IMG/VR virus record: IMGVR_UViG_3300027763_000099
Coordinates: 1 to 42,938 of that record
Length of the DNA: 42,938 nt
Source of the DNA: a virus
Strand: one strand, 5' to 3'
The translations under genes and the position numbers were made by a program. The notes beneath the pieces are model-generated. The model saw nothing but the letters and a program-made list of their open reading frames with translations, searched no databases and had not been told where the DNA came from. Positions 1,945 to 41,107 of the stretch are shown one piece after another (the stretch's first letter is position 1; the number at the start of each line of letters is the position of its first letter).

Positions 1945-1948
1945 GGTA

Positions 1949-3720: not shown

Positions 3721-3724
3721 TACC

Positions 3725-4408: not shown

Positions 4409-4430
4409 TTAATTTTTTAAAGTATTAAGG

Positions 4431-4439: not shown

Positions 4440-4452
4440 GTAAATTAAAATT

Positions 4453-4809
4453 ATGAAAAACATACTATCAAGTTTAACAAACAATGAAAAAAATAGAATT
4501 CTTGAAATGCATAAAAAGGCAACATCTAAATTTTATTTATTTGAAAATACTCTACCTACAGACATAAAATGGCAATCTTGTGATGGTAATTTAAATACTT
4601 TATCTTCCGAGTCAATATCATTTTTAACTCCTTCAGGTGAAGAAAATGGAAAAAAATTATATAAATTCACTAAAACTCCCGAAGATAAGGCAGGAAGTTA
4701 TGATGTAAAAGGATGTGTTTGTGAAGATACATGTGTAACAGAAGAAGAATCTTTTTATATTGAAGAAGGGGACGGAACAAATATTTTAAGACTTTATGAA
4801 GGATTTTAA
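4453..4809 (+). CDS. Possible late/internal protein with cleavable-type N-terminus
   Basis: A 118-residue protein. The first ~18 residues form an amphipathic helix (MKNILSSLTNNEKNRILE) related in pattern to N-termini of other proteins in this window; ILE could be a processing site of the kind cut by T4-type prohead proteases, by analogy only. The rest is Ser/Thr/Glu-rich with four Cys clustered around residues 84-95 (VCEDTC). No enzyme motif is seen. It has its own TATTTATTA signal upstream and a strong terminator downstream, so it is probably a monocistronic unit interrupting the replication genes. Confidence 0.55.
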   Translation: MKNILSSLTNNEKNRILEMHKKATSKFYLFENTLPTDIKWQSCDGNLNTLSSESISFLTPSGEENGKKLYKFTKTPEDKAGSYDVKGCVCEDTCVTEEESFYIEEGDGTNILRLYEGF

Positions 4810-4830
4810 TTTTTAGTAAAAGAATTATTA

Positions 4831-4857
4831 AACCCACCCCAAAAAGGTGGGTTTTTT
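4831..4857 (+). terminator. Rho-independent terminator
   Basis: CCCACC (4833-4838) pairs with GGTGGG (4846-4851) around a 7-base loop, extended by flanking A-T pairs and followed by TTTTTT. It closes the 118-residue gene and isolates it from the gp47-like gene. Confidence 0.85.
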
Positions 4858-4862
4858 GTTGA

Positions 4863-4894
4863 TTGACAATTAATTTAAAATAGTTTATATTTTG
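4863..4894 (+). promoter_or_regulatory. Promoter for the gp47/gp46 operon
   Basis: TTGACA (4863-4868), 17 bases, then TATATT (4886-4891), which reads on as TTTG. This matches the general sigma70 consensus and nearly matches the Bacteroidota box. The gp47-like ATG at 4898 follows directly, so the transcript would be leaderless or nearly so. Confidence 0.6.
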
Positions 4895-4897
4895 TGT

Positions 4898-5677
4898 ATG
4901 ATAAAAACTATTATACATTTTTCTGATTTACATATAAGATTATTTAAAGATCACGACTTATATAAATCAATTTTAGAAGAGGCTATTAATCAATGGAGAG
5001 AACTTGAACCTGATAGAATTGTATTTACGGGAGATTTAGTACACTCTAAAAATCAAATGACACCTGAGCTTATTGAAATGGTTTCTTGGATATTAAAAGA
5101 ATGTTCATACATTGCACCAACAATTATAATACCAGGTAATCACGATTTCTTAGTTAATAATACAGAAAGATTAGACGCACTTTCACCCGTAATTAATTCA
5201 CTAAACAACCCAAATATATTTTATTACAGAGATAGGGGTGTGTATGAGGATGAAAATATAAGTTGGTGTGTCTATTCTCAATATCAAGGAAACATACCAC
5301 CTGATTTAAATGTTGCAACTGGAATTAAGGTTGGATTATTCCATGGACCAATATCAGGACTTAAAACTGATTTAGGTTTCGAATTTGGGGAAGAGGCGTA
5401 TGATGTTGAAAAGTTTGATGGACTTGATGTTGTTTTATGTGGAGATATTCACAAAAGAGCGGAATTTAAGTTTAAGACAGGTAAAGGTTATATGATTGGA
5501 TCAACAATACAAAACAATATTGGTGAAAGTATCGGTAGACATGGTTATGGTGTTTATAATGTTGAAACAAACGACTATACTTATAGAGACTTATTTAACC
5601 CAAAACCTTTTTTAAAATTCTCAATGAAGTCATTTGAAGATATTGAAAAAGGAACGGAAAAAATACAAAATTTTTAA
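4898..5677 (+). CDS. SbcD/gp47-like recombination nuclease subunit
   Basis: A 259-residue metallophosphoesterase of the Mre11/SbcD/T4 gp47 family, the nuclease half of the complex that processes DNA ends for recombination-dependent replication. All phosphoesterase motifs are in order: SDLHIR (Asp10, His12), TGDLVHS, PGNHDF, a His in GLFHGP and the final GDIHKR. The length fits the catalytic core without a long capping domain. I chose ATG 4898 and not an upstream TTG because the first beta strand (IIHFSDLH) must begin almost at the N-terminus and the promoter box ends just before it. The ATPase partner is encoded at 6979-9354, separated by three small genes. Confidence 0.9.
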   Translation: MIKTIIHFSDLHIRLFKDHDLYKSILEEAINQWRELEPDRIVFTGDLVHSKNQMTPELIEMVSWILKECSYIAPTIIIPGNHDFLVNNTERLDALSPVINSLNNPNIFYYRDRGVYEDENISWCVYSQYQGNIPPDLNVATGIKVGLFHGPISGLKTDLGFEFGEEAYDVEKFDGLDVVLCGDIHKRAEFKFKTGKGYMIGSTIQNNIGESIGRHGYGVYNVETNDYTYRDLFNPKPFLKFSMKSFEDIEKGTEKIQNF

Positions 5678-5680
5678 TTA

Positions 5681-6331
5681 ATGGAATTACCAAAAGACTT
5701 AAAAGACAAAGTTTGGAATTATTGTAGATTAAATGATATAACCGACGTAAACGGTTTTATTATTAAAACAATAAAAAAAGGGTTAGATGTTGAAGTTTAT
5801 GGGCTTTTGGGTAAAACACTTAATGAAGGTGAAAAAGACTTAAAAACGGGTATTGTTGGTGAAAAACAGGTAGAAATTGAGGTAATCCGTGAAATACGGG
5901 TGGAAGTACCTGTTGAAGTTATTAAAGAAGTTGAGAAAATTGTCACAAAAATAGAATACATTAGTGACAAAACAGGTGAAAATGAACTGTTGTTAAAAAT
6001 ACAACAGTTGGAAGAAGAAATGTCTAAAAAGGATGAAGAATTAGATAAAGAAAGACAAATATTTTCCACTAAGACGGAAGAAATAGAAAATATTTTCCAT
6101 TATGAGATGTCTAAAAAGGATAAAGAGTTAGACGAACTTAGACGTAATTTAGACATTAAAAAAGATGACGACCAAGTAAAGTTACTTCAAGAGACACTAC
6201 AGAAATTAAGAAAAGAGATTTCAGAAAAAAATAAAAAAATAGAAGAGTTAGAAAAAATAAACAAAGAACCTAACAATAATGCGATGAACGCATTTTTTAT
6301 GAAAGGATCAAACTTAAAAGATATATTATGA
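5681..6331 (+). CDS. Coiled-coil protein in the gp47-gp46 operon
   Basis: A 216-residue protein. Residues 1-45 form a compact helical head, followed by a Glu/Val-rich stretch with EVPVEV-type alternation (about 65-90) and then a long charged coiled coil (about 95-200) containing two related EEMSKKDEELD / YEMSKKDKELD heptad blocks. The C-terminus is short and Asn/Met-rich. No enzymatic motif is present. It lies three bases after gp47 and overlaps the next start (ATGA), so it is co-expressed with the recombination nuclease; a scaffolding or tethering role is possible but not demonstrated. Confidence 0.7.
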   Translation: MELPKDLKDKVWNYCRLNDITDVNGFIIKTIKKGLDVEVYGLLGKTLNEGEKDLKTGIVGEKQVEIEVIREIRVEVPVEVIKEVEKIVTKIEYISDKTGENELLLKIQQLEEEMSKKDEELDKERQIFSTKTEEIENIFHYEMSKKDKELDELRRNLDIKKDDDQVKLLQETLQKLRKEISEKNKKIEELEKINKEPNNNAMNAFFMKGSNLKDIL

Positions 6332-6729
6332 TAGAATTAGTAATTTGGGCAATGGTTGCCTATGGTATGACAAACATTTTAGTTTATGGGTCAATATTTA
6401 ACGGATTAAGAAACTCAATCCATAAATGGGGAAATAATAAATATGCTCCCTTTAATCACTTTGGTAAATTTTTATCTGAATTAATATCTTGTGTTTTATG
6501 TACATCTACTTGGGTAGGGTTCTTCCTGTCCTTGGCGTACTTTTCTCCGAACACTTGTTTCATTGGACTTAATAAATATTTATCGGTATTTTTTGATGGG
6601 ATATTATCCGCAGGTTTTGTGTGGGCAATAAATTCTATAATTGAATGGTTTGAAGAAAACAGACCAATGAAACAAAATCAATATGTTGAAGAAACAACAG
6701 AAACTGAAGAACAAATTTTAAACGATTAA
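6328..6729 (+). CDS. Integral membrane protein, DUF1360-like
   Basis: A 133-residue protein with about three hydrophobic segments: residues 2-22, 50-72 and 85-111. The second contains SCVLCTSTWVGFF, resembling the CxxCxxxWxG signature of DUF1360-type membrane proteins. The C-terminal 25 residues are acidic and cytoplasmic in a simple topology model. Its presence between gp47 and gp46 is unexpected for a recombination operon and could reflect membrane association of replication, although chance operon membership is equally possible. The start overlaps the preceding stop (ATGA). Confidence 0.6.
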   Translation: MIELVIWAMVAYGMTNILVYGSIFNGLRNSIHKWGNNKYAPFNHFGKFLSELISCVLCTSTWVGFFLSLAYFSPNTCFIGLNKYLSVFFDGILSAGFVWAINSIIEWFEENRPMKQNQYVEETTETEEQILND

Positions 6730-6741
6730 ATAATAAATAAA

Positions 6742-6975
6742 ATGGGAAAAAAAGATAAAGAACACAGAGCAAAGGTTGCAAAAAGAAATGCAAAAGTAAA
6801 AGAACAAAAATCAGGAATGCAAAAAGCATTTGATATCTTAATGAAACAACAAATAGAAAGATTACAAGAAAATAATGGGGTTGACGTTAGTTTATCGGGA
6901 CAACCATTAACTTTTAATGTTGTTGATCAAGATACTCCTGAAATTAATGAAGAAAATAAGGAAGAAGACAAATAA
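6742..6975 (+). CDS. Small charged hypothetical protein
   Basis: A 77-residue protein with a very basic N-terminus (about 25 residues dominated by Lys/Arg), a central amphipathic helix (about 27-45) and an acidic C-terminal tail. The asymmetric charge suggests binding to nucleic acid or to a partner. No known domain is recognised. It lies 12 bases after the membrane protein gene and 3 bases before the gp46-like gene, hence in the same operon. Confidence 0.55.
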   Translation: MGKKDKEHRAKVAKRNAKVKEQKSGMQKAFDILMKQQIERLQENNGVDVSLSGQPLTFNVVDQDTPEINEENKEEDK

Positions 6976-6978
6976 TAA

Positions 6979-9354
6979 ATGGATCTCTTTAATCCACCAA
7001 AAATATACAACTACAAAATTATGATAAAAGATTTAGACTTTACTAAGTTTGAAAACCCAACAATACAAGTTGTTTGGGAGGACTTACAAGAAAATTTTAC
7101 TCAAGATAAAATTAAAAGTGTTAAATACTATTTTCAAAAAAAATATAATACAACAAACGTCAACGTATTAACAAAAGTTAAAAACGTAGATCAAGAAACA
7201 ATGCAAACAGTTGATGTGTCTGTTAATATCACTGATAGTAATTATCAAATAGATCTTTTGAAAAATTTTTTACAATCTAAAGGTTATGATAAAAACTTAG
7301 ACCAAATATTAGATCTAAACAGAACTGTAGAACATAAAATGGAAGAAGGTGACGTTGATGTAACCCAATTTAAAAAATGGTACATTAGAAATATTGAGTT
7401 CTCAAATTTTCTATCCTATGGTGAAAATCAAAAATTAAATTTTGATACTTTAAATGGATTAATTGTTGTTGAGTCCGACCCACCAAATTTTGGAGGGAAA
7501 ACAGTTTTGTCTGTGGACTTATTAATGTTCTTATTCTTTAATGAGACAACAAAAACAACCAAGGCCGAAGAAATCTTTAATCGATTTACCGATAAAGACT
7601 CGGTAGTTGTTAAAGGTGAAATCACAATTGATGGTGAAGATTATATAATCTTAAGAAAAATTGAAAGAAAGAAATCAAAAAAAGGTGATTGGAATGTAAA
7701 AACAGAATTAGATTTCTTTAAAAAACTTTCCGACGGTAGTTTACAAAATTTTACTGGTGAACAAAGAAGAGAAACCGAAGCTTTCATTAAAAATTCTATT
7801 GGAACAAAAGAAGATTTTTTAATGACAATACTTACAACTTCGACAAATCTTGAAGAGTTGTTGGAGTCAAAACCAACTGCAAGAGGGCAAGTCCTATCAA
7901 GATTTATGGGTCTTGAGTTTTTAAAAAGGAAAGAGGAGGTCGCGAAAGAAATATATAGTTCGTTTGGAAAATCAAAACTATCAAATTTGTATAGTTCTGA
8001 ACAATTAAAAACGGATATAGAAACTTATGCGACTAAAATTGTTGAATACAATGATCAGATTGAGGAAAACAAAAAAGAACTAGAGGACATCGAAGATAAG
8101 ATATCCAAAGGTAAAGAATATCGTGACGATATGTTAAAGAAAAAACATAACGACATTGATAAAGAAATTGCTCTGATGAACCCTGATAAAACTCAAGACG
8201 AGGTTGTTAAGTTAAAAAAAGAAAAAGAAGAATTCTTAGTTAAGTTAACCGAACTTAAAGTTATTGAACCATCTTCGTTTTATTATGAGGATGATCACGA
8301 TAAAGTTAAAGATGAATACAACAAATCATTTAAACAAATGGTTGAGGTTGAAAGTAAGATTAAATCAATTGAAGAATTAAAGAGTTCTGTTGACGGTGGA
8401 ATCAAATGTGAACACTGTGGAATTGACTTAATGATGGCCTCAATCACACAATCTAAAATTGCCGAACTTGATGGTTATATCATGCAAAAAGACCAAATTT
8501 ATACCATAATGCAGGTTTTAACCGGCACAGAACAAACATTTGTTAGACTTAAAAAAGAATTTGATGAGTATGAAAAAAACAAATTAATCAAAGAAAAATA
8601 TGATTTAAGTGTGGAAAGTTGTGACCTTAAGATTAATGGTTTAAATGATAAATTAAAAAGATGGTCCGAAGTACAAGACAAGATCAAATTAAATACCCAA
8701 ATAGACGGTCAATTAATAAAGGCAGATCTTCGTTTAGAGGAATTAGATAGATTAAAAAAGAATAAGAACACTGAAATATCTAACTGTGAATACAATATAA
8801 AAACAAATGAAGAAAAAATAGAACATAATAAAAAATTAATCGTTAAAATAAAAGAAGAGGACGAAAAAGATAAAATTTATAAAATGTATCTTGAATCTTA
8901 CGGAAAAAATGGGGTATCAAAATCAATAATGAAAACTATGATGCCACTAATTAATTCTGAATTACAAAGATTAATGGAAGATAGTTCATATTTTAAATTG
9001 GAGGTGAGAATTAATGATAAAAGTGAGGTTGAATTTATTATGGTTGATAATGGAACTGGTATTGAAAAATTGATGGTTTCAGGTTCAGGTTACGAAAAAA
9101 CAATTGCTTCGTTAGCGTTAAGATCGGTATTAAGTAAGGTTTGTTCGTTACCAAAACCAAATGTTGTTGTCTTTGATGAGGTATTTGGTAAAATATCTAA
9201 CGATAATTTAGAAATGGTTTCCGAATTTTTCATCAAAATTAAGACATATTTTGATAAGATATTCCTTATTTCGCACAATCCTTTGGTTAATCAATGGGCA
9301 GACTCAACGGTTAAGATATCCAAACAAAATAATGTCTCAAGACTATCAAAATAA
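6979..9354 (+). CDS. SbcC/gp46-like recombination ATPase
   Basis: A 791-residue SMC/Rad50-type ATPase, partner of the gp47-like nuclease. The ATPase head begins near residue 134 (IRNIEFSNFLSYG); the P-loop is NFGGKT (G172-G173-K174-T175), less glycine-rich than the usual GxNGxGKS/T. Long coiled coils flank a zinc hook, CEHC at 477-480. The C-terminal half supplies the signature-like VSGSGYEK, Walker B VVVFDEVF and the H-loop LISHN. About 130 residues precede the ATPase, which T4 gp46 lacks; they look alpha/beta and are unassigned. Sequence supports an ATP-dependent DNA-end-processing complex. It follows the 77-residue gene by three bases. Confidence 0.88.
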   Translation: MDLFNPPKIYNYKIMIKDLDFTKFENPTIQVVWEDLQENFTQDKIKSVKYYFQKKYNTTNVNVLTKVKNVDQETMQTVDVSVNITDSNYQIDLLKNFLQSKGYDKNLDQILDLNRTVEHKMEEGDVDVTQFKKWYIRNIEFSNFLSYGENQKLNFDTLNGLIVVESDPPNFGGKTVLSVDLLMFLFFNETTKTTKAEEIFNRFTDKDSVVVKGEITIDGEDYIILRKIERKKSKKGDWNVKTELDFFKKLSDGSLQNFTGEQRRETEAFIKNSIGTKEDFLMTILTTSTNLEELLESKPTARGQVLSRFMGLEFLKRKEEVAKEIYSSFGKSKLSNLYSSEQLKTDIETYATKIVEYNDQIEENKKELEDIEDKISKGKEYRDDMLKKKHNDIDKEIALMNPDKTQDEVVKLKKEKEEFLVKLTELKVIEPSSFYYEDDHDKVKDEYNKSFKQMVEVESKIKSIEELKSSVDGGIKCEHCGIDLMMASITQSKIAELDGYIMQKDQIYTIMQVLTGTEQTFVRLKKEFDEYEKNKLIKEKYDLSVESCDLKINGLNDKLKRWSEVQDKIKLNTQIDGQLIKADLRLEELDRLKKNKNTEISNCEYNIKTNEEKIEHNKKLIVKIKEEDEKDKIYKMYLESYGKNGVSKSIMKTMMPLINSELQRLMEDSSYFKLEVRINDKSEVEFIMVDNGTGIEKLMVSGSGYEKTIASLALRSVLSKVCSLPKPNVVVFDEVFGKISNDNLEMVSEFFIKIKTYFDKIFLISHNPLVNQWADSTVKISKQNNVSRLSK

Positions 9355-12404: not shown

Positions 12405-13538
12405 ATGAAAGAAAAATTTTTACCTTGGTTTATGTTATTTTGTGCGTTGGGTTTATCTGGAACTGCGGCATATTATTCAGTAGTTGGTTTATCAATAGTA
12501 TTTGTTGGTGTAGCATTACCCGTTATCATTATGGGATCATTTCTTGAAATATCCAAGATTGCAATTGCAACATACTTACACGATAAATGGAAAGAAACCT
12601 ATGGTATTCTTAAGATTTACCTATCAATTGCTCTTATAGTACTATCTATAATTACCTCTTTAGGGATATACGGACTGTTAAGTACCGGTTTTCAGAGTAA
12701 TATCGCAAAACTTGAAATAAATGAAAAACAAGTTAAAAATATTGAAGTCAAAAAGAAACGATTTGATGAAGTTAAAGTTGAGTTAACCAAAGAAAAAAAC
12801 ACTTTAGATGGAGACATTACTAAGTTAAGAGATGGGGTATCTAATAACACAACAACACAATCTATAGATAGAAGAACAGGACAGGTAATTACAAGAGCCA
12901 ACGACGGTAATAGAAAATTATTTGAATCTCAATTATCGCAAGCACAAGTTAGAAGGGACACTATAGCAAAAAGAATTGATAATATGAATGATAGTATCAC
13001 ACAACTTGATATTGATATTTTAAACATGGAATCAAAAGAAATTTCAGGAAGTGAATTGGGAGCTCTAAAGTATGTTAGCGAACTACTTGATTGGGATATT
13101 AAAAGAACGGCAAATCTTTTTATTTTAATTCTGATATTTGTGTTTGATCCATTGGCAATCACGTTAGTTATTGCAACAAACCAAGCGTTTAAAGGAAAAA
13201 GAAAAGACGAACTTACCCCCCAAGTTACCCCCCAAGTTACCCCCCAAGTTACCATACATGATGAGGTTGAGATTCCTGAAAGTTATTTAACTCATCATAC
13301 CCCTCAAGTTACCGACGAAGTACCGACTAAGTACCGACTAAGTACCGACGAAGTAAAAAAGGTTTGGGAAAGGGTTAAAAAATTAAGAAAAAAAGGTTTA
13401 TTACCTCTTGAACAAACAGAAGAAGAAAAGATTGATGAACCTACCGCATTGGTATTTACCCCATATGAAATTGAAGATTTGGGGGAAACCGACTATGTTG
13501 AAGAAAACAATAAGAAAAGATTGATTTATAAAAAATAA
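12405..13538 (+). CDS. Multi-pass membrane protein with coiled coil and repeat tail
   Basis: A 377-residue protein with hydrophobic segments at about 5-25, 27-55 and 66-88, a long charged coiled coil (about 100-210), another hydrophobic segment at about 240-262 and a cytoplasmic-type tail. The tail carries three perfect TPQV repeats followed by a region encoded by 11-base tandem repeats, then a Lys/Glu-rich end. Such topology resembles phage 'coil-containing' membrane proteins of unknown role. Placement just before an amidase-like and two spanin-like genes suggests involvement in lysis or envelope interaction, which is inferential. Its stop overlaps the amidase-like start (TAATG). Confidence 0.6.
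   Translation: MKEKFLPWFMLFCALGLSGTAAYYSVVGLSIVFVGVALPVIIMGSFLEISKIAIATYLHDKWKETYGILKIYLSIALIVLSIITSLGIYGLLSTGFQSNIAKLEINEKQVKNIEVKKKRFDEVKVELTKEKNTLDGDITKLRDGVSNNTTTQSIDRRTGQVITRANDGNRKLFESQLSQAQVRRDTIAKRIDNMNDSITQLDIDILNMESKEISGSELGALKYVSELLDWDIKRTANLFILILIFVFDPLAITLVIATNQAFKGKRKDELTPQVTPQVTPQVTIHDEVEIPESYLTHHTPQVTDEVPTKYRLSTDEVKKVWERVKKLRKKGLLPLEQTEEEKIDEPTALVFTPYEIEDLGETDYVEENNKKRLIYKK
13215..13250 (+). repeat. Three 12-base tandem repeats (TPQV)
   Basis: ACCCCCCAAGTT occurs three times in succession, encoding TPQV each time; a fourth, one-base-different copy stands at 13299-13310. The unit is a multiple of three, so copy-number change would only lengthen or shorten the protein tail. Six-C runs inside each unit are additional slippage sites. 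Confidence 0.9.
13311..13354 (+). repeat. Four 11-base tandem repeats inside the coding region
   Basis: ACCGAC(T/G)AAGT occurs four times head to tail. Because 11 is not a multiple of three, each copy is read in a different frame, and gain or loss of one copy would shift the frame of the C-terminal 60 residues of the membrane protein. Confidence 0.9.
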
Positions 13539-14134
13539 TGGTGGACATAATAAAATATGGAAACTTTAAATCTAAAAATGTATCAGATTTAAAAAAACAA
13601 ATCATATTAATACATTCCTCCAGATATTCTGAAGAATATATTACATCCCTAAAATACAGGCACAACGAGTCATACAATAAAATACCTAACTATTTTATTG
13701 ATCGGGAAGGTAAAATAGTTAAGTTATTGGAGGATCAAGAATACTCAAAATTTTTTAATAAAAATGATTTAAATAAAAACGCAATTTTTGTTTGTTTAGA
13801 AAATTTAGGTTGGTTAGAAAAACAACCATTAAAAACTGGTTACATTAACTGGATTGGCAATATTTATAATAGTGAAGTTTTCCAAAGAAGATGGAGAGAT
13901 TATTATTATTGGCAACCATATACTGAAGATCAGATGAAATCTACTTCAGACTTATGTTTAAAATTATGTGGTGATAACAATATTGAGGTCAAAATTTTGG
14001 GAAACAACACAAAAATAAATGGTATTGAAAATTTTGAAGGTATTGTCACAAAAAGTAATTATTTAAGTGAGATTACAGACTTAAGTCCGGCCTTTAATTT
14101 TGAATTATTTAGTAAATTATTAGAAAATGAATAG
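13538..14134 (+). CDS. Amidase_2-like protein, active site partly lost
   Basis: A 198-residue protein with the outline of N-acetylmuramoyl-L-alanine amidases (PGRP/Amidase_2 fold): an early ILIHSS strand with His26, the core PNYFIDREGKIVKL and a following NAIFVCLENLGWL strand. The C-terminal segment where the family has a second zinc-ligand His and a DPGP loop reads IVTKSNYLSE...DLSPAFNF, so the His appears replaced and the Asp retained. It may be a degenerate or altered cell-wall amidase, or a binding protein on the same fold. Linked spanin-like genes support an endolysin-related role. The start overlaps the preceding stop. Confidence 0.6.
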   Translation: MVDIIKYGNFKSKNVSDLKKQIILIHSSRYSEEYITSLKYRHNESYNKIPNYFIDREGKIVKLLEDQEYSKFFNKNDLNKNAIFVCLENLGWLEKQPLKTGYINWIGNIYNSEVFQRRWRDYYYWQPYTEDQMKSTSDLCLKLCGDNNIEVKILGNNTKINGIENFEGIVTKSNYLSEITDLSPAFNFELFSKLLENE

Positions 14135-14702
14135 ACAGGAAGAAATAAAAAAATTATTGTCAGCATCAAGAAATCTTCTTAACAAAGATATGGTGAAGGA
14201 ATCAACAGACATACTTAATAAGTATTACGGTATAATTAAGGAATCTGATGATGAATATGAAACCGCAGAACCCAACGACGAAGATAATGAAGAAACTCCT
14301 GAAGATAGAAAGTTTGAAAAGAAAACAACCTATAGGATTTCAGGAGGACTTATGACAATAAATGGTAAAGATAAAAAAGAATTACAATTAACAACAGACG
14401 ATAAAAACGCATTTCAGGAATCAATGGACGAGTTTGTTGGTGAAGTATCTGAATTAGTTGATTTTAATACTCTTAATTTATACCCAAATAACGTAGAATG
14501 GTCAGGTAAAATACAAGACTTAGATATTGAATTTTTCTTCTCTATTGGTGAAACAAATGGGGTTTACATAAACGGAGACATGATAAACATTAATGATGAA
14601 TTTGTTGAATTTACCACTAAGTTAAGAACTTATTACGAAAAGTTTAAGGCAAAATGGTCAAAAGTTATCGCTAACAGAAAAAAAACACCAAAAGAAAAAT
14701 GA
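14127..14702 (+). CDS. Hypothetical acidic protein, 191 residues
   Basis: The N-terminal ~40 residues are helical (KKLLSASRNLLNKDMVKES), followed by a strongly acidic linker (about 42-62) and an alpha/beta domain. The early helix resembles N-termini of T4-type internal head proteins in general pattern, with VKE-S and IKE-S as possible processing sites, but this is weak. It overlaps the amidase-like gene by eight bases and the following spanin-like gene by four (ATGA), so it is coupled with the lysis-type genes. Function unknown. Confidence 0.55.
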   Translation: MNRQEEIKKLLSASRNLLNKDMVKESTDILNKYYGIIKESDDEYETAEPNDEDNEETPEDRKFEKKTTYRISGGLMTINGKDKKELQLTTDDKNAFQESMDEFVGEVSELVDFNTLNLYPNNVEWSGKIQDLDIEFFFSIGETNGVYINGDMININDEFVEFTTKLRTYYEKFKAKWSKVIANRKKTPKEK

Positions 14703-15052
14703 AAAATTTTTTAGTTAAATATTATAAAGAAATCTTATTAGTAGTATTAACATTATTATTAACAATAATTCTAATTAAGATATTTAAACCAATTGAAGAT
14801 AGGTCTGAATTATTAAATTATAAGTTAGATCAATTAGATCAAAACATTAGTAAAGTTAAAAACTTACAACTACAATTAAATGATTCTATCACATCATATA
14901 AAAAAGATATTGAAAAGATTGATGAAAATATATTAAAAATAAAAAGTGAAAAAACAACCGTAAATAATTATTACGAACAAAAGAAAGATCAAATAAAAGG
15001 AATGGACAAAAAAGAAATTGACAGTTCGTTCAAACAAAGATACAAATATTAA
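14699..15052 (+). CDS. Inner-membrane spanin-like protein
   Basis: A 117-residue protein with one N-terminal membrane segment (about residues 9-29, all Leu/Ile/Val) and a charged coiled coil filling the rest. This N-in, single-TM plus periplasmic coiled-coil plan is that of Rz-type inner-membrane spanins, which join an outer-membrane partner to fuse the two membranes during lysis. No sequence signature proves it, so the call rests on topology and on position between an amidase-like gene and a second coiled-coil membrane protein. Confidence 0.5.
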   Translation: MKNFLVKYYKEILLVVLTLLLTIILIKIFKPIEDRSELLNYKLDQLDQNISKVKNLQLQLNDSITSYKKDIEKIDENILKIKSEKTTVNNYYEQKKDQIKGMDKKEIDSSFKQRYKY

Positions 15053-15054
15053 TT

Positions 15055-15471
15055 ATGAAAAAAATTATTTTATTAACATTTTTTATGGTGTCTTTTATAG
15101 GTTTTAGTCAAACTAAACCACAAAAAGAAGATACCACTACAATATGTTTTCCTGTTAATGTGGGGAAACAAATACTATTAGATCTTAATGACTTAGATAA
15201 ATTAAAAAAACAATCTATTTTAGATCAAAAAGAAATAAAAGAATTAGAAACCAAAGTAATTAAAGAAGAGGGTGTTGTTAAATTTTTGGAACAAAAAGAT
15301 AAAAATAGTGAAATAATAATAAAAGATACCGAAGAAAAGGTAACACTATTAGATACTGAAAACAAAGAGTTAAGAAAAGATATTAAAAAAATAAAAACAA
15401 AAAACACAATTATTGAAATAGTTTCAGGATCAATAGTTGGAGCATTAACATATATTTTAATTTTTAAATAA
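15055..15471 (+). CDS. Secreted coiled-coil protein with C-terminal anchor (lysis-type)
   Basis: A 138-residue protein beginning with a signal peptide (MKKIILLTFFMVSFIGFSQ), with FSQ a typical flavobacterial cleavage context. A charged coiled coil spans about 45-115, and a hydrophobic helix at about 118-137 (IVSGSIVGALTYILIF) ends the protein. Such signal-coil-C-terminal-anchor proteins sit beside lysis genes in phages of Bacteroidota and may act as spanin or holin-associated factor. The gene starts 2 bases after the spanin-like gene. Confidence 0.5.
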   Translation: MKKIILLTFFMVSFIGFSQTKPQKEDTTTICFPVNVGKQILLDLNDLDKLKKQSILDQKEIKELETKVIKEEGVVKFLEQKDKNSEIIIKDTEEKVTLLDTENKELRKDIKKIKTKNTIIEIVSGSIVGALTYILIFK

Positions 15472-16224: not shown

Positions 16225-17667
16225 ATGAAAAACTATAGAGGAAAAATATCCGAAAAATACGATACAATGAAATTCAATAAAGCCGGAAATTCTTTTGATT
16301 ATGTGGAAGAAGATCTTAATGAAAGACTATATGGTAAACAAAGAAATATAGACAAAAACAAAAACGGTAGAATTGATAGTGAAGATTTTAAAATGTTAAG
16401 AAACAAAAAAGAAACAAAAGAAAGTATGGAAAAAGACCTTAGCGAAAAACTATATGGTAAACAAAGAAATATAGACAAAAACAAAAATGGTAGAATCGAT
16501 AGAGAGGACTTCAAAATGTTAAGAAACAAAAAAGAAACAAAAGAAGGTCGTGGAGAATGTATGGAATGTGGAGGTAAATGGCCAATGGAAGAAGAAACAA
16601 TCTACGAATTTGAGGTTAATGAAAGTGATGTTTGTGAGTGTGGTGGATTGAAAATGGAGGGAGAATGTTCTGAATGTGGAATGAAAGAGTCTGATCTTTT
16701 AGAATTTAAAGGTGATGATTATAAAGATTTAAGTATGTTTAACCCTTATTATGGTGATCATGAAGAGGAGTGTTCACATTGTAATGGAACAGGATACGAC
16801 GAATTTAATGACACTGAATGTGAATGGTGTGGAGGAGAAGGTTTTTCTCAAGGTATCGACTTCCAGTACGAACCAAAACTTGAAGAAGACATGTTTGATA
16901 ATGCGAAAAAAACATCTGATTTTTGGAATGACGGAGAAAAAACCTTCAGAACAAAAATGTATGAGTACGAAATATTCAACGATAAGTTAGGTAGAACCGT
17001 AAGATTAAGTGAAGAACAAGTTGTTAATTTAATTGAGACTTTGGCCGAAGAGAAATTAAAACCATCTAAAAAAACTAGAGGATATTCTGAGTATGAAAGA
17101 TCTTTTGATAAATCAGGAAAAGAAAATCAAGATTACTACAAAGAAGTTTCTAAAAAAATGAAAGATTACATGAAAGATGGATCTAAAGAGTCATTTACTA
17201 TGGAACCTAAACATTTCCCAATGGGTAATGGAGAGATAGAAGAAATGGATAAGATGGCGTATGTTCCTTCAGATAGTGTTGCAGAATACGTTGAAAACTT
17301 TACTGCAGCAGCATTAGAAAATATTGAATACGATGAATTCGCACCTAATAAAGAGTGGGTTGAAGATAATGTTCTTGGATCGTCAAGAACAGGAAACAAC
17401 CCTAAATGGGCAAATGCGGTAGAAACACCAACAAACAAAAGAAGAAATGAAATTAGAGAAAAGAATTTGTTAGGTCAAATTAAGAAAAAGGCTTATAATA
17501 AATCTCCACAACCTATTGTTAAAGATAGACCAGGAAGTGATGATGCTTCTGATCTTTTAAATAAAGTTGAAAGTGGGGAAAAAAGAAGTAGTAAAAAGTC
17601 TAAAAAAATTAACGAGGATTTAGAAAGAATAGGAAATTTAATTTCATACGGTAGAAAAACACAATAA
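16225..17667 (+). CDS. Large internal-type protein: EF-hand repeats and DnaJ-like zinc motif
   Basis: A 480-residue protein. Residues ~30-115 hold two nearly identical 41-residue repeats, each with a calcium-loop signature DKNKNGRIDxEDF typical of EF-hands/dockerins. Next come scattered Cys pairs (MECGGKW, CECGG, CSECG) and a CxxCxGxG pair of DnaJ type (CSHCNGTG, CEWCGGEG, about 194-220). The C-terminal half is helical and charged and contains RLSEEQVVNLIETLAEE, which resembles the N-terminal 'LTE' helix of other proteins here. No enzyme signature is seen. A virion-core or scaffold role is plausible from context and motif sharing, but unproven. Confidence 0.55.
   Translation: MKNYRGKISEKYDTMKFNKAGNSFDYVEEDLNERLYGKQRNIDKNKNGRIDSEDFKMLRNKKETKESMEKDLSEKLYGKQRNIDKNKNGRIDREDFKMLRNKKETKEGRGECMECGGKWPMEEETIYEFEVNESDVCECGGLKMEGECSECGMKESDLLEFKGDDYKDLSMFNPYYGDHEEECSHCNGTGYDEFNDTECEWCGGEGFSQGIDFQYEPKLEEDMFDNAKKTSDFWNDGEKTFRTKMYEYEIFNDKLGRTVRLSEEQVVNLIETLAEEKLKPSKKTRGYSEYERSFDKSGKENQDYYKEVSKKMKDYMKDGSKESFTMEPKHFPMGNGEIEEMDKMAYVPSDSVAEYVENFTAAALENIEYDEFAPNKEWVEDNVLGSSRTGNNPKWANAVETPTNKRRNEIREKNLLGQIKKKAYNKSPQPIVKDRPGSDDASDLLNKVESGEKRSSKKSKKINEDLERIGNLISYGRKTQ
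16326..16551 (+). repeat. Tandem 123-base coding duplication (EF-hand unit)
   Basis: The stretch beginning at 16326 recurs at 16449 with few substitutions, mostly synonymous, an offset of 123 bases (41 codons). Each unit carries one DxNxNGxIDxxDF calcium-binding-like loop. The near identity indicates a recent duplication or ongoing homogenisation. Confidence 0.9.
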
Positions 17668-22863: not shown

Positions 22864-24798
22864 ATGGAACTTGTTAAATTATTATCAAATATAGTTAAAG
22901 AAAATACGAATAAAAAAAATAGGTTATTACTTGAATATCCAGAATCTACCGTTAAAAAACTTGTTGGAAAATTTTCTGGCCAAACAGAAGATTCGATTGA
23001 GGTTATTAAACAAACAATATCTGATTTTGAAAGATTTAAAGGTACTTTACAGGGTAATGAGAGAGATATCTTTACTTATGACTATCAAAAACTAAAAGAT
23101 GTTGTAAACTCCAAGTCTGAGAGTCAAAAGTCTAAAAAATCTTTTGATGACATTTATAAGACTTTCATGGAAAAAAATGCCGGAGCAGATAAAAGATTAA
23201 CAAAGTTAAACATTAAGAAATTTTTTGAAATGAAAGCTTTGGATTCTAAGAAGTTCAGAAAAGACATTTTAACTATGACATCCATAGAACTTTCTGCTTT
23301 AATAAGAAGAGACTTTGAAAATTTTATGAAAGAAAAGTTAACTGAAAAGTTGGTTAAAGAAAATCCCCAAGAAAATATAGAACAAGTCGTTAATAGGGTT
23401 GATAGATATATTGCAAACTATCCTTTGGTCCCTATTAATACTAAACCGGCGGGTATGATGACTTTTATTGAGTTTGAACATGTTGTTGACGTTTTACCTA
23501 TGCAGGATGAATATAAAATGCCTGAAGTTGATGTTAATGATGTTGATGTCACATATGAGGATGACACTATATTAATATTTGCACCTGATCAAAAACATAA
23601 GTGTATTAATATTAGAAAAAAATTCGCTCCTGATAGAAGATGGTGTACATCTTGGGAGGGATCCTCAAACTATTATTACAATTATAGATTAAGACAGAAT
23701 TTAACTTTATACTATGTAATTAATAAAAATTTAAAAGAAAGTGATGTTAATTATGCGGTGGTAATCTTAGTTGATAACGATTGGAGAAATAACACACAAT
23801 TTAGATTAGCGGATGGAACTAACTCAGGTAGATTCGCAGGATCTACGATTATGCCTTTTAGTGAGATTGTACAAAAAATACCAAACCTAAACGGAAAAGA
23901 AAAATACTTCAAACCTAATCCATACTCAAGTGAACAACAAAGTATGATGATGACTTTTGAAAGAAAAAATTTAACAACAGACGATGCGATAAAGGAATTA
24001 GGATCAGAAGAGAATGTTGAATTATGGTTAGAATTAAGAACACCTGACTTAACAACTGTTGGTAATGGTGATCAAATATGGGCAAACTTTACGCCATACT
24101 TAAGACACAAATACATTGGTATGGATGGTAAGATTAATGGTGAAATGCTTAAAGTAAGTGACAAAGAAAGTAAGGATTATTACCTTTCAAAGAAAAGAAA
24201 ATCGTTGTTGTTAACAGATATTGACAAATTAAGTGAAGCGGATGTTTCCTTAATTATGAGTGATGAGATGGCTCCTTACCATGAGGCACTTATTAATTCA
24301 TATGCAAAACAATTGGCTAAGAAAAATCTTGACCTGTCATATTTACCTATTTCTTTCCCTAATGATTCTGTTGCCAAATTTGCTATGATGTTTGGGTTAG
24401 AAACTTTATTCGAAATGTTACCTAAAGATACTCAGTTTATTAACTTAGAAAACAAATCAGATAAAGTAAAACCATTTGATGTGCCAGCAAATATATCAAG
24501 ATTTAAAAATTTAAAGACCTTTGTTGCTGACAACATAATAAAAAGTTTACCTGAATCTATTGGTGAGTGTGGGGTATTATCATTCCTAAACGTTACCGGG
24601 AATAAGGAACTTAAAACTTTACCAAAATCATTATCAACATTATACTGTCTGACATTTGTGTCAGTGTTAGATTCTGGTATTGATGTTGATAGACTACCTA
24701 AAGAGTTATTTAAATACATGATACCAACCGAAGACTTCTTTATTGTTAATTTCCCACCGGAACTTAAAAAGAAAAGAGGTTGTAAAAGCGAAGACTAA
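22864..24798 (+). CDS. Large protein with WCT domain and leucine-rich repeats
   Basis: A 644-residue protein in three parts. Residues 1-25 form an amphipathic helix (MELVKLLSNIVKEN) of the type seen at other late-type N-termini. A helical region follows to ~190. The centre (about 228-310) has strand-rich sequence around RRWCTSWEGSSNYYYNYRL and a following LTLYYVI strand, a Trp-Cys-Thr pattern I recall from other phage proteins but cannot assign. Near the C-terminus, residues ~555-620 show leucine-rich-repeat spacing (LKTF, IKSLPESIGE, LSFLNVTGN, LKTLPKSL, LTFVSVLDSG). A virion or internal protein is likely from the upstream signal; function unknown. Confidence 0.55.
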   Translation: MELVKLLSNIVKENTNKKNRLLLEYPESTVKKLVGKFSGQTEDSIEVIKQTISDFERFKGTLQGNERDIFTYDYQKLKDVVNSKSESQKSKKSFDDIYKTFMEKNAGADKRLTKLNIKKFFEMKALDSKKFRKDILTMTSIELSALIRRDFENFMKEKLTEKLVKENPQENIEQVVNRVDRYIANYPLVPINTKPAGMMTFIEFEHVVDVLPMQDEYKMPEVDVNDVDVTYEDDTILIFAPDQKHKCINIRKKFAPDRRWCTSWEGSSNYYYNYRLRQNLTLYYVINKNLKESDVNYAVVILVDNDWRNNTQFRLADGTNSGRFAGSTIMPFSEIVQKIPNLNGKEKYFKPNPYSSEQQSMMMTFERKNLTTDDAIKELGSEENVELWLELRTPDLTTVGNGDQIWANFTPYLRHKYIGMDGKINGEMLKVSDKESKDYYLSKKRKSLLLTDIDKLSEADVSLIMSDEMAPYHEALINSYAKQLAKKNLDLSYLPISFPNDSVAKFAMMFGLETLFEMLPKDTQFINLENKSDKVKPFDVPANISRFKNLKTFVADNIIKSLPESIGECGVLSFLNVTGNKELKTLPKSLSTLYCLTFVSVLDSGIDVDRLPKELFKYMIPTEDFFIVNFPPELKKKRGCKSED

Positions 24799-36881: not shown

Positions 36882-38138
36882 ATGACAAAAATTATTATTA
36901 CAGAAAGACAAATGGACTTGATAGTAAAAAATCTATTAAGTGAGGCAGTTGGTGTTCCAGAAGGTATTATTGAATCAGCAGAAAAATTATATGAAATCAT
37001 TTTGAATCTATTAAAAGGTATGGACGATTACAATACCACACAAACATTTACTGAAAACAATTTAGATTTAACAATATCTGATTATAAAATACACGAGTTA
37101 GAATTACGAGTTGAAATTAACGAAATGGATGATTATGATGGACCTCTTGTTATGATGTCTGCTGGAGTTGCAAGCCAATTTAATTTTGATAAAAAAATAT
37201 TAATGAAGGTGCATAAATTAGATAATAGTATTGAATTATCTTTAAATTTTGGATCAAATGAGGATAATTGGGATTCTGAAGACATTTATAACTATTTTAG
37301 TAAAGATAAGGTTGAATTTATATCTGTAATTGCTCACGAAATTAAACATAAGTTTGATAAACAAAAAAAAGAAACGGATTTGATAGGTAAAGATGCTGAT
37401 TACCAAGCATACACTAGTTCAGGATTAAACTTTGGAATTCCAGTGATTAATGAATTTATGAGACACAGTTATTTTATTCAACACGTTGAGAACCTTGTTA
37501 GACCAACTGAAATTGCAACAAGAATGAAATTAACCGGTATTACAAAAGAAAAGTTTAGAGAATTTTTTGAAAACGATAAAGTAGTTAAAGAACTAAAAGA
37601 AATTAGATATTTTAGTTATACTAATTTAGTTAAAAAACTACACGAACAAATGGATAGAATTGATTCTTTATTATCACATGCTGGAGTACCTTATGAAGAT
37701 ATGTCTGAAGATAAAAAAATATATGTACTTATGGATTTGGTTTATATTAATCTAATAAGTGCTAAAAAAGATATTTTTGATAGAATGACAGAGGATATGA
37801 ATGATAGAGCCGCGGCATTTATGAGAATGATGGGTATGGGGCATATGGTTAAAGATAATAATAGTGAAGGATTGGAGAAAGTTAGAAATAAGTTTTTAAA
37901 CCACATTGCTAGATACCGAAATAAAGAAGAACGGTTCTTTGTTGATGAGTGCGAAAGATTTAATTATGTTGCAACAAAATTAATTAAAAGACTTTCTAAA
38001 ATATATTCACTTATTCCTGATGAGAAAGAACAAACAAACGAATCTATATTAAATTGGGATTTACACCAGAAACTTATGGAAAAAAAATACGGTAAAAGAA
38101 AAATAGAAACCGAAATTAAAGATTGGAAGATTAAATAA
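36882..38138 (+). CDS. HExxH metallopeptidase-like protein, late-type N-terminus
   Basis: A 418-residue protein with VIAHEIKHKFD (His152, Glu153, His156) as a zinc-metallopeptidase motif; a downstream VRPTEIATRMK supplies a Glu suitable as third ligand (gluzincin-like). The N-terminus KIIITERQMDLIVKNLLSEA matches the LTE-helix pattern, and LSE-A fits the (L/I)-x-E/A cleavage consensus of T4-type prohead proteases well. The rest is helical with a Met-rich segment around 305-325. A protease packaged in the head and delivered to the host is an attractive but unproven idea. Confidence 0.65.
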   Translation: MTKIIITERQMDLIVKNLLSEAVGVPEGIIESAEKLYEIILNLLKGMDDYNTTQTFTENNLDLTISDYKIHELELRVEINEMDDYDGPLVMMSAGVASQFNFDKKILMKVHKLDNSIELSLNFGSNEDNWDSEDIYNYFSKDKVEFISVIAHEIKHKFDKQKKETDLIGKDADYQAYTSSGLNFGIPVINEFMRHSYFIQHVENLVRPTEIATRMKLTGITKEKFREFFENDKVVKELKEIRYFSYTNLVKKLHEQMDRIDSLLSHAGVPYEDMSEDKKIYVLMDLVYINLISAKKDIFDRMTEDMNDRAAAFMRMMGMGHMVKDNNSEGLEKVRNKFLNHIARYRNKEERFFVDECERFNYVATKLIKRLSKIYSLIPDEKEQTNESILNWDLHQKLMEKKYGKRKIETEIKDWKIK

Positions 38139-38201: not shown

Positions 38202-38210
38202 TATTTATTA
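38202..38210 (+). promoter_or_regulatory. TATTTATTA motif within an inverted repeat
   Basis: TATTTATTA stands in the 158-base gap before the secreted protein, inside an inverted repeat CACTAAT/ATTAGTG (about 38180-38213). A similar TATTTATTT (38283-38291) is 5 bases before ATG 38297. Which of the two drives the gene is unclear. Confidence 0.35.
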
Positions 38211-38296
38211 GTGAACTCGACCGGCCCATGGAAGATGGGGGTTTCCTAAAAAGATTCTTCAAGAGAGTAAATAATTTTATTTTATTTATTTTTACT

Positions 38297-41044
38297 ATGA
38301 AGAATATATTGCTTGGACTTTTTGTTCTATTTTCATCTTTCTTATTTTCTCAATCATGTCTCCACACTATTAAACGAACAGATACCTTTGGTGATGGGTG
38401 GAATGGAGGAACAGTCGCAGTTTCCGTTAACGGAGTAACCGTTTTATCTAATTTAAGTTGTGTTGGATTAGGTCCTACTAATTCTACATTTACCGCATCT
38501 GTTGGGTCAACCATTAGAGTATACCGAACACTCGCAGGGTCTTACCCTTCCGAAATGCGTATACAGGTTCTAAATGGCTCAGGATCTATCATAATCAATA
38601 CTATACAACCAGTTGCCGGAACCGCAACTACGGGAGGACAAACAGTATTAGGTAGTTGTGCCGCAGTTGCTGCCGGCCCATGTACTAATACTTCCTCTTA
38701 CATGACGGCAACTGCACCATCAACACCAACAACTGTAACCATCAGTACTTGTCAATACCAAACTGAATATAATACAATTTATTCTTGTGTTGCAGGACAA
38801 ACATATCAATCATATTACAATTTAGGTGGATATATCACAGTTAGATCTGGAACTTATAATGGTACTGTAGTAACTAGTGGAAACTCTCCACTAAATTGGG
38901 TTTGTCCGTCCTCAGGAACATATTTTGTTCATTACAACACAAATAACACTTGTGGAACTGCTTCAAGTTGTGGAACATCTTATATTACTTGTCTAACTTG
39001 TGCACCACCACCACCCCCATCCAACGATTTAGTATGTAACTCAACTCCAATTACTTGTGGTCAAACACTATCAGGAACCACCGTAAATGCAACTAACTCT
39101 GGAACGGGTGAAAATGGTTTATGTTCTGTTAGTCAAACACAACCCGGTGTTTGGTATGTTATTTCAGGAAACGGACAAATTATGACCGCAAATCTTTGTG
39201 CAACGGCATGGGATAGTAAAATGTCTGTATTTAGTGGTCCTAATTGCTCAACATTATCATGTGTTGGAGGTAATGATGATTTTGGGCCCGCTTGTTCTAG
39301 TTCATCAGCCTCATTTTCATGGACTTCGTCAATTGGAACAAATTACTATATATTAGTTCATGGGTATAGCGCAAGTAGTAGTTTTTCTATTGGTCTAACT
39401 TGTATATCTCCCCCGCCAGCAGACCCAACATCAATATCTGCGACACAAAATACTATTTGTAATGGATCATCTACCACTCTAACCGCAAATGGCGCTTTGG
39501 GTGTGGTTTATTGGTATATAGGAGGTTGTGCATCCACTTTCGTGTCAACTGGAAATTCCATCTCGGTAAGTCCTGCATCAACCACTACATACTATGCGAG
39601 AAATCTAAACGGAGGTCTTTTTAGTAGTGGGTGCGCTTCAACAACAATAACAGTTAACCCTAATCCCACTGTAACTATAAGTGCGGCAACCAATACAATA
39701 TGTAACGGATCAAATACCCAATTGATATCTAACATTAGTGGAGTGTCATCACCAGGAAATCTTGTTGTAACCATCTCCACCAGTGGATTCTTAGACGAAA
39801 GTTCTTGGACTTTAACAAATAGTTTAGGGGCTGTAATTGGTTCAGGTGGACCTTATGGTTTAGGGTCAACAAATATAATTCCAATCGGTTCATCGGCAAA
39901 TGGCCCATATACATTTAATGTGGAAACTCAAGGAATATGGAATGACAACACGGCAAATTATTTGGTAACTTGTAACGGAACAACGGTCCTAAGTGGAAGT
40001 TTAGTTGGTGGACAGAGCATAACACAATCAATATCATCTTGTGGGTCTTCTCCCGGTGTAACATATCTATGGACACCTTCAAACGGACTTACAAATGCAA
40101 GTGCTCCAAGTCCATTTGCTTCTCCTACGACTACACAGACCTATCAATTAACCGCAACGGCAAATGGATGTTCGGCATCAACTTCAACAACAATAACCGT
40201 AAATCCTTCTGTTGGTTTTGTGTCTACAATATCTGGTAATAATACCATAATTGCCGGAACACAAGAAAGTTATTCAATAACACCGGTAGCAAACGCAACA
40301 TACCAATGGGCATACACACAGTCCGTAACCGCACAACTTTGGATAAACGTTCCAAATTCTAACTCTCCATCAATTACATTTACTTGGCCACAGACAACAA
40401 CTAATGGTTCTGTTAGGGTTACGGTATCAAACGCTTCAAATTGTGGAACTCAAACCAGATTTTTTAATATTATTACTAATGGTGCTCTTCCTGTGGAACT
40501 ATTATCTTTTGATGGGTCTTGTAATAACAACTTAATTACTTTAAATTGGAAAACGGCAACCGAACATAACTCTGACTATTTTGATGTTCTTAAATCAAGA
40601 GATGGTATTAATTGGTCTAAATTAACAACTTTGAATTCGGCAGGAAACTCAACTCAAGAGTTAACCTACACGACAAAAGATGAAAACGCAATTGATGGAA
40701 ATAACTATTATAAACTTCTTCAATATGACATAGACGGAGTGAATAAAGAGTATGGACCAATAAATGTTATTTGTAATGGAAATTCAAAAGGTTATTTTCT
40801 CATATTTCCAAATCCTAGTTCTGGAGATTTTCAAGTTGTGTTAAACAATAAAAATATGATTGGTAATGGAAAACTAATAATTAAAGATACAAAAGGATCT
40901 GAAATTTTTAATAAAGAAATTAATATTGTTTCAGGGATTAATTTATATAATATTGGTGATTTAAATATAGTAGATGGAATCTATTATATTCAGGTAAGTA
41001 ATGGAAATTTTTCAACACAAGTAATAAAACAAATAATTAAATAA
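38297..41044 (+). CDS. Secreted multi-domain protein with T9SS sorting domain
   Basis: A 915-residue protein that begins with a Sec signal (MKNILLGLFVLFSSFLFSQ) and ends with a type A T9SS C-terminal sorting domain: FPNPSSGDFQVVL near residue 835, then IKDTKGSEIFNKEI and a final IDGIYYIQVSNG...KQIIK. Between them are a DGWNGG-type beta domain (about 30-110), a Cys-rich module, a PPC-like domain (PGVWYVISGNGQ to YYILVHGYS), Ig/PKD-like repeats with ICNGS starts and a PVELLSFDG domain. This layout is typical of flavobacterial surface adhesins or secreted enzymes, not phage proteins. No lipobox or catalytic motif was found. An upstream ATG at 38228 would bury the signal peptide, so 38297 is preferred. 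Confidence 0.85.
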   Translation: MKNILLGLFVLFSSFLFSQSCLHTIKRTDTFGDGWNGGTVAVSVNGVTVLSNLSCVGLGPTNSTFTASVGSTIRVYRTLAGSYPSEMRIQVLNGSGSIIINTIQPVAGTATTGGQTVLGSCAAVAAGPCTNTSSYMTATAPSTPTTVTISTCQYQTEYNTIYSCVAGQTYQSYYNLGGYITVRSGTYNGTVVTSGNSPLNWVCPSSGTYFVHYNTNNTCGTASSCGTSYITCLTCAPPPPPSNDLVCNSTPITCGQTLSGTTVNATNSGTGENGLCSVSQTQPGVWYVISGNGQIMTANLCATAWDSKMSVFSGPNCSTLSCVGGNDDFGPACSSSSASFSWTSSIGTNYYILVHGYSASSSFSIGLTCISPPPADPTSISATQNTICNGSSTTLTANGALGVVYWYIGGCASTFVSTGNSISVSPASTTTYYARNLNGGLFSSGCASTTITVNPNPTVTISAATNTICNGSNTQLISNISGVSSPGNLVVTISTSGFLDESSWTLTNSLGAVIGSGGPYGLGSTNIIPIGSSANGPYTFNVETQGIWNDNTANYLVTCNGTTVLSGSLVGGQSITQSISSCGSSPGVTYLWTPSNGLTNASAPSPFASPTTTQTYQLTATANGCSASTSTTITVNPSVGFVSTISGNNTIIAGTQESYSITPVANATYQWAYTQSVTAQLWINVPNSNSPSITFTWPQTTTNGSVRVTVSNASNCGTQTRFFNIITNGALPVELLSFDGSCNNNLITLNWKTATEHNSDYFDVLKSRDGINWSKLTTLNSAGNSTQELTYTTKDENAIDGNNYYKLLQYDIDGVNKEYGPINVICNGNSKGYFLIFPNPSSGDFQVVLNNKNMIGNGKLIIKDTKGSEIFNKEINIVSGINLYNIGDLNIVDGIYYIQVSNGNFSTQVIKQIIK

Positions 41045-41079
41045 AAAAATATTAATATTTTTGATATAAAAATAAATTA

Positions 41080-41107
41080 AATCCCTTCTTTACGGAGGGA
41101 TTTTTTG
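41080..41107 (+). terminator. Rho-independent terminator
   Basis: AATCCCT (41080-41086) pairs with AGGGATT (41096-41102) around a 9-base loop, followed by T's. Ends the T9SS-type gene; its T tract contributes the TTTG of the next promoter. Confidence 0.8.

Follow-up and report, generated by a model that had tools for sequence, protein, structure and literature searches.

Locus and cargo protein

The window analysed here is a single linear virus record of 42,938 bases (IMG/VR record IMGVR_UViG_3300027763_000099). It carries a gene for a predicted secreted multi-domain protein of 915 amino acids (38297..41044), identified from its open frame and from domain scans and referred to here as the cargo gene. 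Directly upstream lies an RNA leader (38216..38296) that is conserved as a whole in relatives. The leader comprises a core of ~52 nucleotides with three helices (38216..38267), defined by compensatory changes and a covariance model, and a hairpin, P4, that adjoins the start codon (38265..38291) and varies in sequence between phages. A TATTTAT promoter-like box, recognized by its recurrence in relatives, precedes the leader by 7 nucleotides (38202..38208), and a terminator-like hairpin with a T run follows the gene on its 3′ side (41079..41107; read from the sequence, without a terminator scan). All of these features are on the plus strand. An earlier note on this DNA had pointed to a phage-type upstream motif, and what lies there is, by all indications, an RNA of conserved structure preceded by a promoter-like box. 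We consider it highly likely that this leader is a genuine structured RNA and that it is linked to secreted phage cargo.

The predicted protein starts with a putative Sec signal peptide (residues 1–18, 38297..38350), as had been claimed: the peptide is clear by eye and by a simple rule, MKNILLGLFVLFSSFLFSQ ends with Gln, which is the residue after position 18, and the N-terminus is of the Bacteroidetes kind, like those of the relatives. Gln at this place is expected from the Bacteroidetes Q-rule, as given in parts of the source (PMC10653852). The mechanical open reading frame of the cargo gene starts upstream of 38297, at 38228; we take 38297 as the likely start because the stretch between these positions lies in the non-coding leader and its frame is not kept in relatives. 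An N-terminal extension from 38228 was rejected, as the length of the leader loop varies by non-multiples of three and the frame stops in some relatives (for example, L007). Further along are an Ig_7 domain (CHU_C-associated Ig-like; PF19081, 37.8 bits, cut-off 27.3; 39416..39661) and an FN3/Ig-like beta-sandwich that begins with LPVELLSF (40493..40774; from the predicted model and fold matches). The latter precedes a C-terminal domain (CTD) with an FPNP motif that resembles the type A sorting domain of the type IX secretion system (T9SS; 40802..41038) and is supported by a TIGR04183 match on the C-terminal fragment and a predicted beta-sandwich. Because the cargo has Ig/FN3-like modules, a binding (adhesin-like) role is likely, judging from its domains.

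Phage ownership and gene neighbourhood

The gene content of the window is typical of a large phage and includes, for example, an SbcC-like gene (phrog_77, E = 4.1e-37). A protein scan of viral contigs revealed 34 loci related to the window protein, on contigs of up to 292 kb; in an annotated phage collection, four megaphage records only gave matches, which were weak and covered 9–13% of the window protein. Matches to a gp23-type capsid protein at E = 0.01 or better occur in 9 of 10 large records, 8 of them above the curated cut-off, although the above-cut-off match in G006 is to a 46-position piece only. A Terminase_6N match was found in 4 of 15 relatives. Phage ownership of the cargo gene is supported, because its relatives lie on 34 viral contigs and the large records have gp23-type capsid matches. 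An assembly chimera or misassembled host fragment, the hazard named in the earlier note, was rejected on the grounds that the relatives are on 34 viral contigs, many of them with the same upstream genes, and the claim of a phage gene stands.

Directly upstream of the cargo gene is the gene for a 418-amino-acid protein with an HEIKH motif, common to many relatives (upstream cluster 1). The genes upstream of the leader sort into many clusters; leader and cargo therefore occur together in different neighbourhoods.

Three observations concern these and other genes. The HEIKH (zinc-peptidase-like) protein, encoded at 36882–38138 of the window and without a Pfam match, is the commonest neighbour upstream of the leader. 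In two records (L101 and L143), the gene directly upstream of the leader also encodes a cargo-cluster protein, suggesting tandem cargo genes. In G009, G015 and G016, the gp23 gene has a single open frame whose match falls into two pieces, as would be seen if an insertion lay in the capsid protein.

A conserved leader, most likely a structured RNA

In the 25 relatives, out of 34, with upstream regions that were compared, a block of ~52 nucleotides before the cargo gene is nearly unchanged in every case (25/25) and its flanks differ. In our core model, P0 is formed by 38216–38218 with 38265–38267, P1 by 38219–38222 and 38225–38229 with 38235–38243, and P2 by 38244–38246 with 38252–38254; a near-invariant unpaired UUCUUCAAG stretch stands before the 3′ strand of P0. 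The covariance search (cmsearch) scores the window leader at 100 bits, a value to be read knowing that this copy is itself in the model, as L001. Leaders were aligned in two sets: one holds 34 of 36 leaders (A1; L029 and L092 dropped), and the other, chosen by hand, 34 of the 35 distinct cores available at that point (A2; L092 was omitted because its P2 loop is long).

Across 34 of the 35 distinct cores, 98.4% of cells are paired as the three-helix model requires, and pairing drops to 57% when the partners are slid by one column. Five of the 15 core pairs changed on both sides, compared with a shuffle mean of 1.1, and none of 500 shuffles reached the covariation score. P0 occurs as CUC/GAG (32 cores), UCC/GGA (1) and CAC/GUG (1), and the third pair of P2 as C-G (13), U-A (11) or U-G (2), being unpaired in 7. 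The P2 loops vary from UUCG to an insert of ~20 nucleotides, with a C(UUCG)G loop in L101. Upstream of the gene there is thus a structured core that is conserved and shows compensatory changes, as characterizes a cis-regulatory leader, and the core is most likely an RNA element. Several findings weigh against this assignment. The compensatory changes in P0 are each from one aligned copy (L145 and L033), and those in P2 come mainly from a single pair that is unpaired in 7 of 34 cores. P1 hardly varies, with changes on one side only; RNAalifold, unaided, predicted P1 and P2 but not P0; and the folding energy of the core is no better than that of shuffles. A pairing of the P1 loop with UUCUUC, seen by eye, was discarded as it is not kept in variants.

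Structured 5′ leaders are familiar from riboswitches and ribosomal-protein leaders, which resemble the element described here in having a conserved core and a variable hairpin beside the start codon. The phage leader differs in being tied to secreted phage cargo and in being without an Rfam match: Rfam 15 gave no matches on the window, and the nine matches at a lax threshold had E-values of 0.39 or worse, all far under the gathering scores.

Distribution of the leader and its link to secreted genes

A strict pattern found the leader on 55 viral contigs, with one copy in each stretch. Enough downstream sequence was available on 49 of these contigs, and in all 49 the next gene starts, by eye, with a signal peptide, which in some cargos follows an upstream in-frame ATG. 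Relaxed patterns added three contigs (L101–L103) and then seven more; the covariance model added copies L033–L035. BLAST located the leader in a 634,780-bp megaphage record (LR745206.1), ahead of a secreted protein of 117 amino acids. One further candidate, L148, was rejected as a chance match, being GC-rich and without a signal peptide and scoring 14.4 bits with the covariance model. Besides the window, the leader is thus present in 69 records, comprising 68 viral contigs (from 63 datasets) and one megaphage, some of them near-identical phages.

The next gene is readable in 63 of the leader records, and it encodes a signal peptide (by eye) in 63/63. A strict automatic rule accepts 30 of the 37 distinct N-termini, compared with 17 of 545 control open reading frames (Fisher P = 1.5e-31); the seven that fail do so because of a proline, an asparagine or an upstream ATG, and are signal-peptide-like by eye. 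The 39 proteins behind the leader (38 complete plus L102) fall into eight N-terminal classes, and a signal peptide follows the leader even where the N-terminal domain is unrelated. The bodies of these proteins form five groups without detectable mutual similarity, the largest with 34 members.

The leader is typically a single element. In 17 of 20 records searched with the covariance model, a single match falls under E = 1e-11 and no other is under 0.09. In this search, up to 150 candidates were scored per record, and several large records had more; four megaphage records were run under stricter filters, so that a weak second copy might have escaped notice. A search of the 292-kb record in pieces gave one strong match. 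Whole-record model searches of the remaining three, the megaphage records LR756500, LR756502 and LR756504, gave no leader below E = 0.5; none was found beside the T9SS-like genes of these three records, nor beside the other such gene of LR745206. Outside viruses, 84,980 genomes of bacteria and archaea were scanned with the pattern, a search in which diverged copies would be missed, and five matches were returned; all lack the rest of the element and come from unrelated phyla, and we took them to be chance.

A point against a simple link between leader and secretion is that the same phages have other signal-peptide genes without it, for example four in a row in L033. The leader is therefore not required for export as such and is not a general export tag. 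Two gene runs can be recorded in this context. In L033, positions 1771–8673 encode five signal-peptide proteins in a row, several with CTD-like ends and the last alone with a leader; the gene before the run is the one that gives the gp23 capsid match in the matching record, G015. A second run of signal-peptide proteins, with one TIGR04183 match and without a leader, lies at 2147–9550 of L134 (record G009, the 292-kb phage).

The hairpin at the start codon

P4 was delineated by folding the linkers between core and start codon against shuffles. Compared with dinucleotide shuffles, 26 of the 35 distinct linkers have a better fold at P < 0.05 (mean z = −2.49). With composition shuffles, this is so for 25 of 30 distinct linkers (mean z = −2.66); the control, 382 other gene starts, gave 23 (mean z = −0.06). 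The letters of P4 differ greatly among phages. Counting against P4 as a general component, four of the 35 linkers (L101, L142, L143 and L146) are without any such hairpin.

As folded here, P4 of the window uses the GAG of P0, and in 31 of 35 leaders it takes up the last base of P0. In minimum-energy folds of the whole leader, P0 forms in 1 of 35, the one being a leader without P4, which detracts from the three-helix core. Because of the shared base and of these whole-leader folds, we suggest that P0 and P4 compete; the pair may be a switch, or P0 may be weak.

The promoter-like box

TATTTAT or a near relative (TATAAAT, TATGTAT or TATATAT) stands 6–8 nucleotides ahead of the leader in 27 of 37 distinct upstream regions; among the remaining 10, the box is elsewhere in five and absent from five. 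Upstream of phage genes, ATATTTAT favours the sense strand (110 sense compared with 26 antisense, in 545 upstream regions). In the 292-kb record, 104 genes have TATTTAT, and in 84 of them it lies 10–39 nucleotides before the start codon. The simplest reading is that the box would be a phage promoter from which the transcript starts at or near the leader. The late promoter of T4 is TATAAATA, a similar A/T box, and the phages studied here mostly have a gp23-type capsid match; the putative box differs in being mostly TATTTAT. It also differs in being absent upstream of the three gp23 genes with upstream regions that were inspected, a finding that speaks against the promoter reading; TATTTAT therefore does not mark every late gene.

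Probable sorting domain and proposed export

The earlier note had assigned a type A sorting domain to the C-terminus, and had proposed profile searches as the check. With TIGR04183 (T9SS type A), the last 191 amino acids of the window protein scanned alone reach 25.5 bits, above the 23-bit cut-off, and the domain is predicted to be a seven-stranded beta-sandwich containing IFPNPSSG; these results favour the assignment. In the alignment of FPNP-type C-termini (A3; 17 of 18, with L029 dropped and the window standing in for its copy L001), 17 of 17 members match TIGR04183 at a lax limit of E = 10. Whole-record scans with this model matched 12 of 15 relatives, 10 of them above the cut-off, and 5 of 13 records in a second set. 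A related cargo (L143) scores 35.2 bits with PF18962. The model of the C-terminal fragment (mean predicted local distance difference test score of 86) has two beta-sandwiches, with the seven strands of the last one predicted between fragment residues 109 and 190. Foldseek placed two PDB chains of PorU at ranks 1–2 (template-modelling score of 0.37–0.39 across two domains), and PorU is itself described as a CTD protein in parts of PMC10202324. Numerous FN3 proteins score close behind PorU, and the rows of VIA-align are mostly tandem FN3 domains or FN3 pairs, with the CTD not singled out; the predicted fold by itself is insufficient to prove T9SS type A membership.

The 38 distinct complete cargos behind the leader divide into 18 with an FPNP/YPNP-type CTD and 20 others. 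Several results tell against export through the T9SS. The whole window protein scores 21.9 bits with TIGR04183 (E = 1.3e-4), slightly below the 23-bit cut-off, and 18.3 bits with PF18962, for which the gathering score of 27 is not reached. A conserved short tail (NLxGQEV, later GxVIEIYxDG and KRxIR) ends 18 of the 38 cargos, that is, 18 of the 20 without a CTD, and 0 of the 17 short-tail cargos scanned match any T9SS model. The idea that this tail is a shortened type A CTD was rejected, as it has no match to T9SS hidden Markov models, no profile match to the CTD and no fold-search match at E ≤ 0.001. The other two cargos are that of L010, with neither CTD nor short tail, and that of L142 (117 amino acids), at 25.6 bits marginally under the PF18962 cut-off; L010, L142 and L023 were dropped from the alignment of the other C-termini (A4; 17 of 20). 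On balance, host T9SS export is the best reading of the cargo sequence, and we think it quite likely that the window protein would leave the cell by this route.

Comparison with known systems

T9SS-tagged phage genes have been reported, and a view of the cargo, called unusual in the earlier note, as unprecedented in a phage is not supported: parts of two sources already contain three such genes (Cryophage; PMC7468147, Nat Commun 2020) and one (crAss-like phages; PMC6949934). What is retained of the earlier interpretation is phage ownership, together with export by the host T9SS as the best sequence reading. Candidate roles, as put forward in that note, are superinfection blocking, a changed attachment and a captured host gene. 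As presented in parts of PMC7468147, the Cryophage genes share with the cargos described here the type A sorting domains, variability among variants and a proposed use of the host T9SS; they differ in encoding an endoglucanase, a GH39 protein and a PA14 protein in one phage, with no leader RNA described in those parts. The cargos here are, by comparison, adhesin-like proteins of many large phages with a common structured leader. In the sections of PMC6949934 concerned, crAss-like phages have T9SS-domain proteins near BACON open reading frames (one such frame is reported); they are likewise Bacteroidota phages with T9SS-tagged proteins, but belong to another phage group, with other proteins and no leader described there. 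Type A CTDs, as portrayed in parts of PMC10202324, have the FPNP motif and the C-terminal place in common with the window protein, as well as the seven-stranded Ig-like fold and the Sec signal peptide, both of which are predicted for the window protein, with the difference that the known substrates are the host's own proteins. The phage cargos depart further from those substrates, in that 18 of 38 end in the other tail, without a T9SS model match in our scan.

No report of a leader RNA on such genes was found in the titles and abstracts that searches of the open-access literature returned. The leader is apparently undescribed, and the protein is a further member of an already published type of phage T9SS cargo.

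Proposed mechanism and alternatives

The explanation that best covers these findings, and that we regard as reasonably probable, is that a cis-acting leader driven by a phage promoter controls one T9SS-exported cargo per phage genome. The cargo gene would belong to a family found in phages that are large and mostly T4-like, whose products are surface proteins exported by the host; the hosts would be Bacteroidota, and any cargo function is likewise presumptive. Transcription would start from a TATTTAT-type phage promoter, giving an mRNA with a 5′ leader made of the ~52-nucleotide structured core and, usually, the hairpin beside the start codon. Acting in cis, the leader would most likely affect how translation is initiated or how stable the mRNA is, and in this way would time or limit the production of a single exported cargo in each phage genome. 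A P0/P4 switch is a natural candidate for the mechanism, because P0 and P4 have shared bases in most copies. The cargo would pass through Sec by means of its signal peptide and fold in the periplasm, and the host T9SS would then move it over the outer membrane through its CTD, to be displayed or released. From sequence comparison, we lean towards regulation of expression in cis. More tentatively, the leader could be a regulatory RNA of a new class, present in giant phages of Bacteroidota, that responds to some signal from the infected cell (the candidates being a metabolite, the state of the envelope or of secretion, and a phage protein), with P0/P4 switching gating the translation of one exported surface protein per phage and so remodelling the host surface through the host T9SS at a set time before lysis.

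The strongest alternative, which we consider unlikely, is a passive 5′ element that stabilizes the mRNA or enhances translation and thereby raises the level of an abundant surface protein, with no sensing or regulation. Hairpins at the 5′ terminus commonly protect mRNAs, the leader is directly behind the promoter-like box, and P4, by looping out the variable linker, would hold the core near the start codon. Against this, a mere stabilizer would have no use for unpaired letters as close to invariant as UUCUUCAAG; one might also expect to see it ahead of other abundant genes, but a single strong copy is what 17 of 20 records contain.

Less probable is that the conserved block acts as DNA, as a recombination anchor for cargo swapping, a replication origin or an operator. 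A cassette site or origin would fit one copy per record with exchangeable bodies and C-termini, and P1 hardly varies, as in a DNA site bound by protein; the compensatory changes in P0 and P2, the variable P2 loops and the symmetric but dissimilar P4 hairpins are, however, marks of selection on RNA, and the orientation is constant with the start codon close by. An origin at the leader was rejected, as the cumulative GC skew has no turning point there (one record).

We judge it slightly more improbable still that the leader gives rise to a small RNA acting in trans, or itself acts as one, with the secreted gene as a mere carrier. Although one copy per record and the very high conservation of the core would suit such an RNA, the downstream gene encodes a secreted protein whatever its body, and P4, where present, extends nearly to the start codon, which points to cis action. 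Least probable of all is that the cargo is a virion part, a fibre or decoration protein with Ig-like domains rather than an exported host-surface protein: such domains are common in phage structural proteins and the fold matches include phage tail-tip and fibre proteins, but virions assemble in the cytoplasm, and the whole family has an N-terminal signal peptide, with an FPNP-type CTD in 18 of the 38 distinct complete cargos.

With the cis-acting leader as the preferred reading, a conserved RNA that marks one gene for a putatively exported surface protein in many large phages turns an isolated curiosity, a T9SS tag, into a testable system. The leader is a candidate new RNA family and a means of finding more genes of the phage secretome by the leader alone. 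T9SS-exported adhesins of Bacteroidota serve gliding, and the cargos offer a handle on how phages may alter the cell surface of these bacteria.

Other features of the window

Three features lie elsewhere in the window. A possible lysis cassette, recognized by eye (13538–15471), has an amidase-like gene first, continuing with a small membrane-anchored coiled protein and then a signal-peptide protein with a C-terminal membrane segment, in a spanin-like layout. A 122-nucleotide direct repeat with 90% identity (16304–16548) is within a gene that has EF-hand matches. The phage protein encoded at 22864–24798 has weak leucine-rich-repeat matches under the cut-off.

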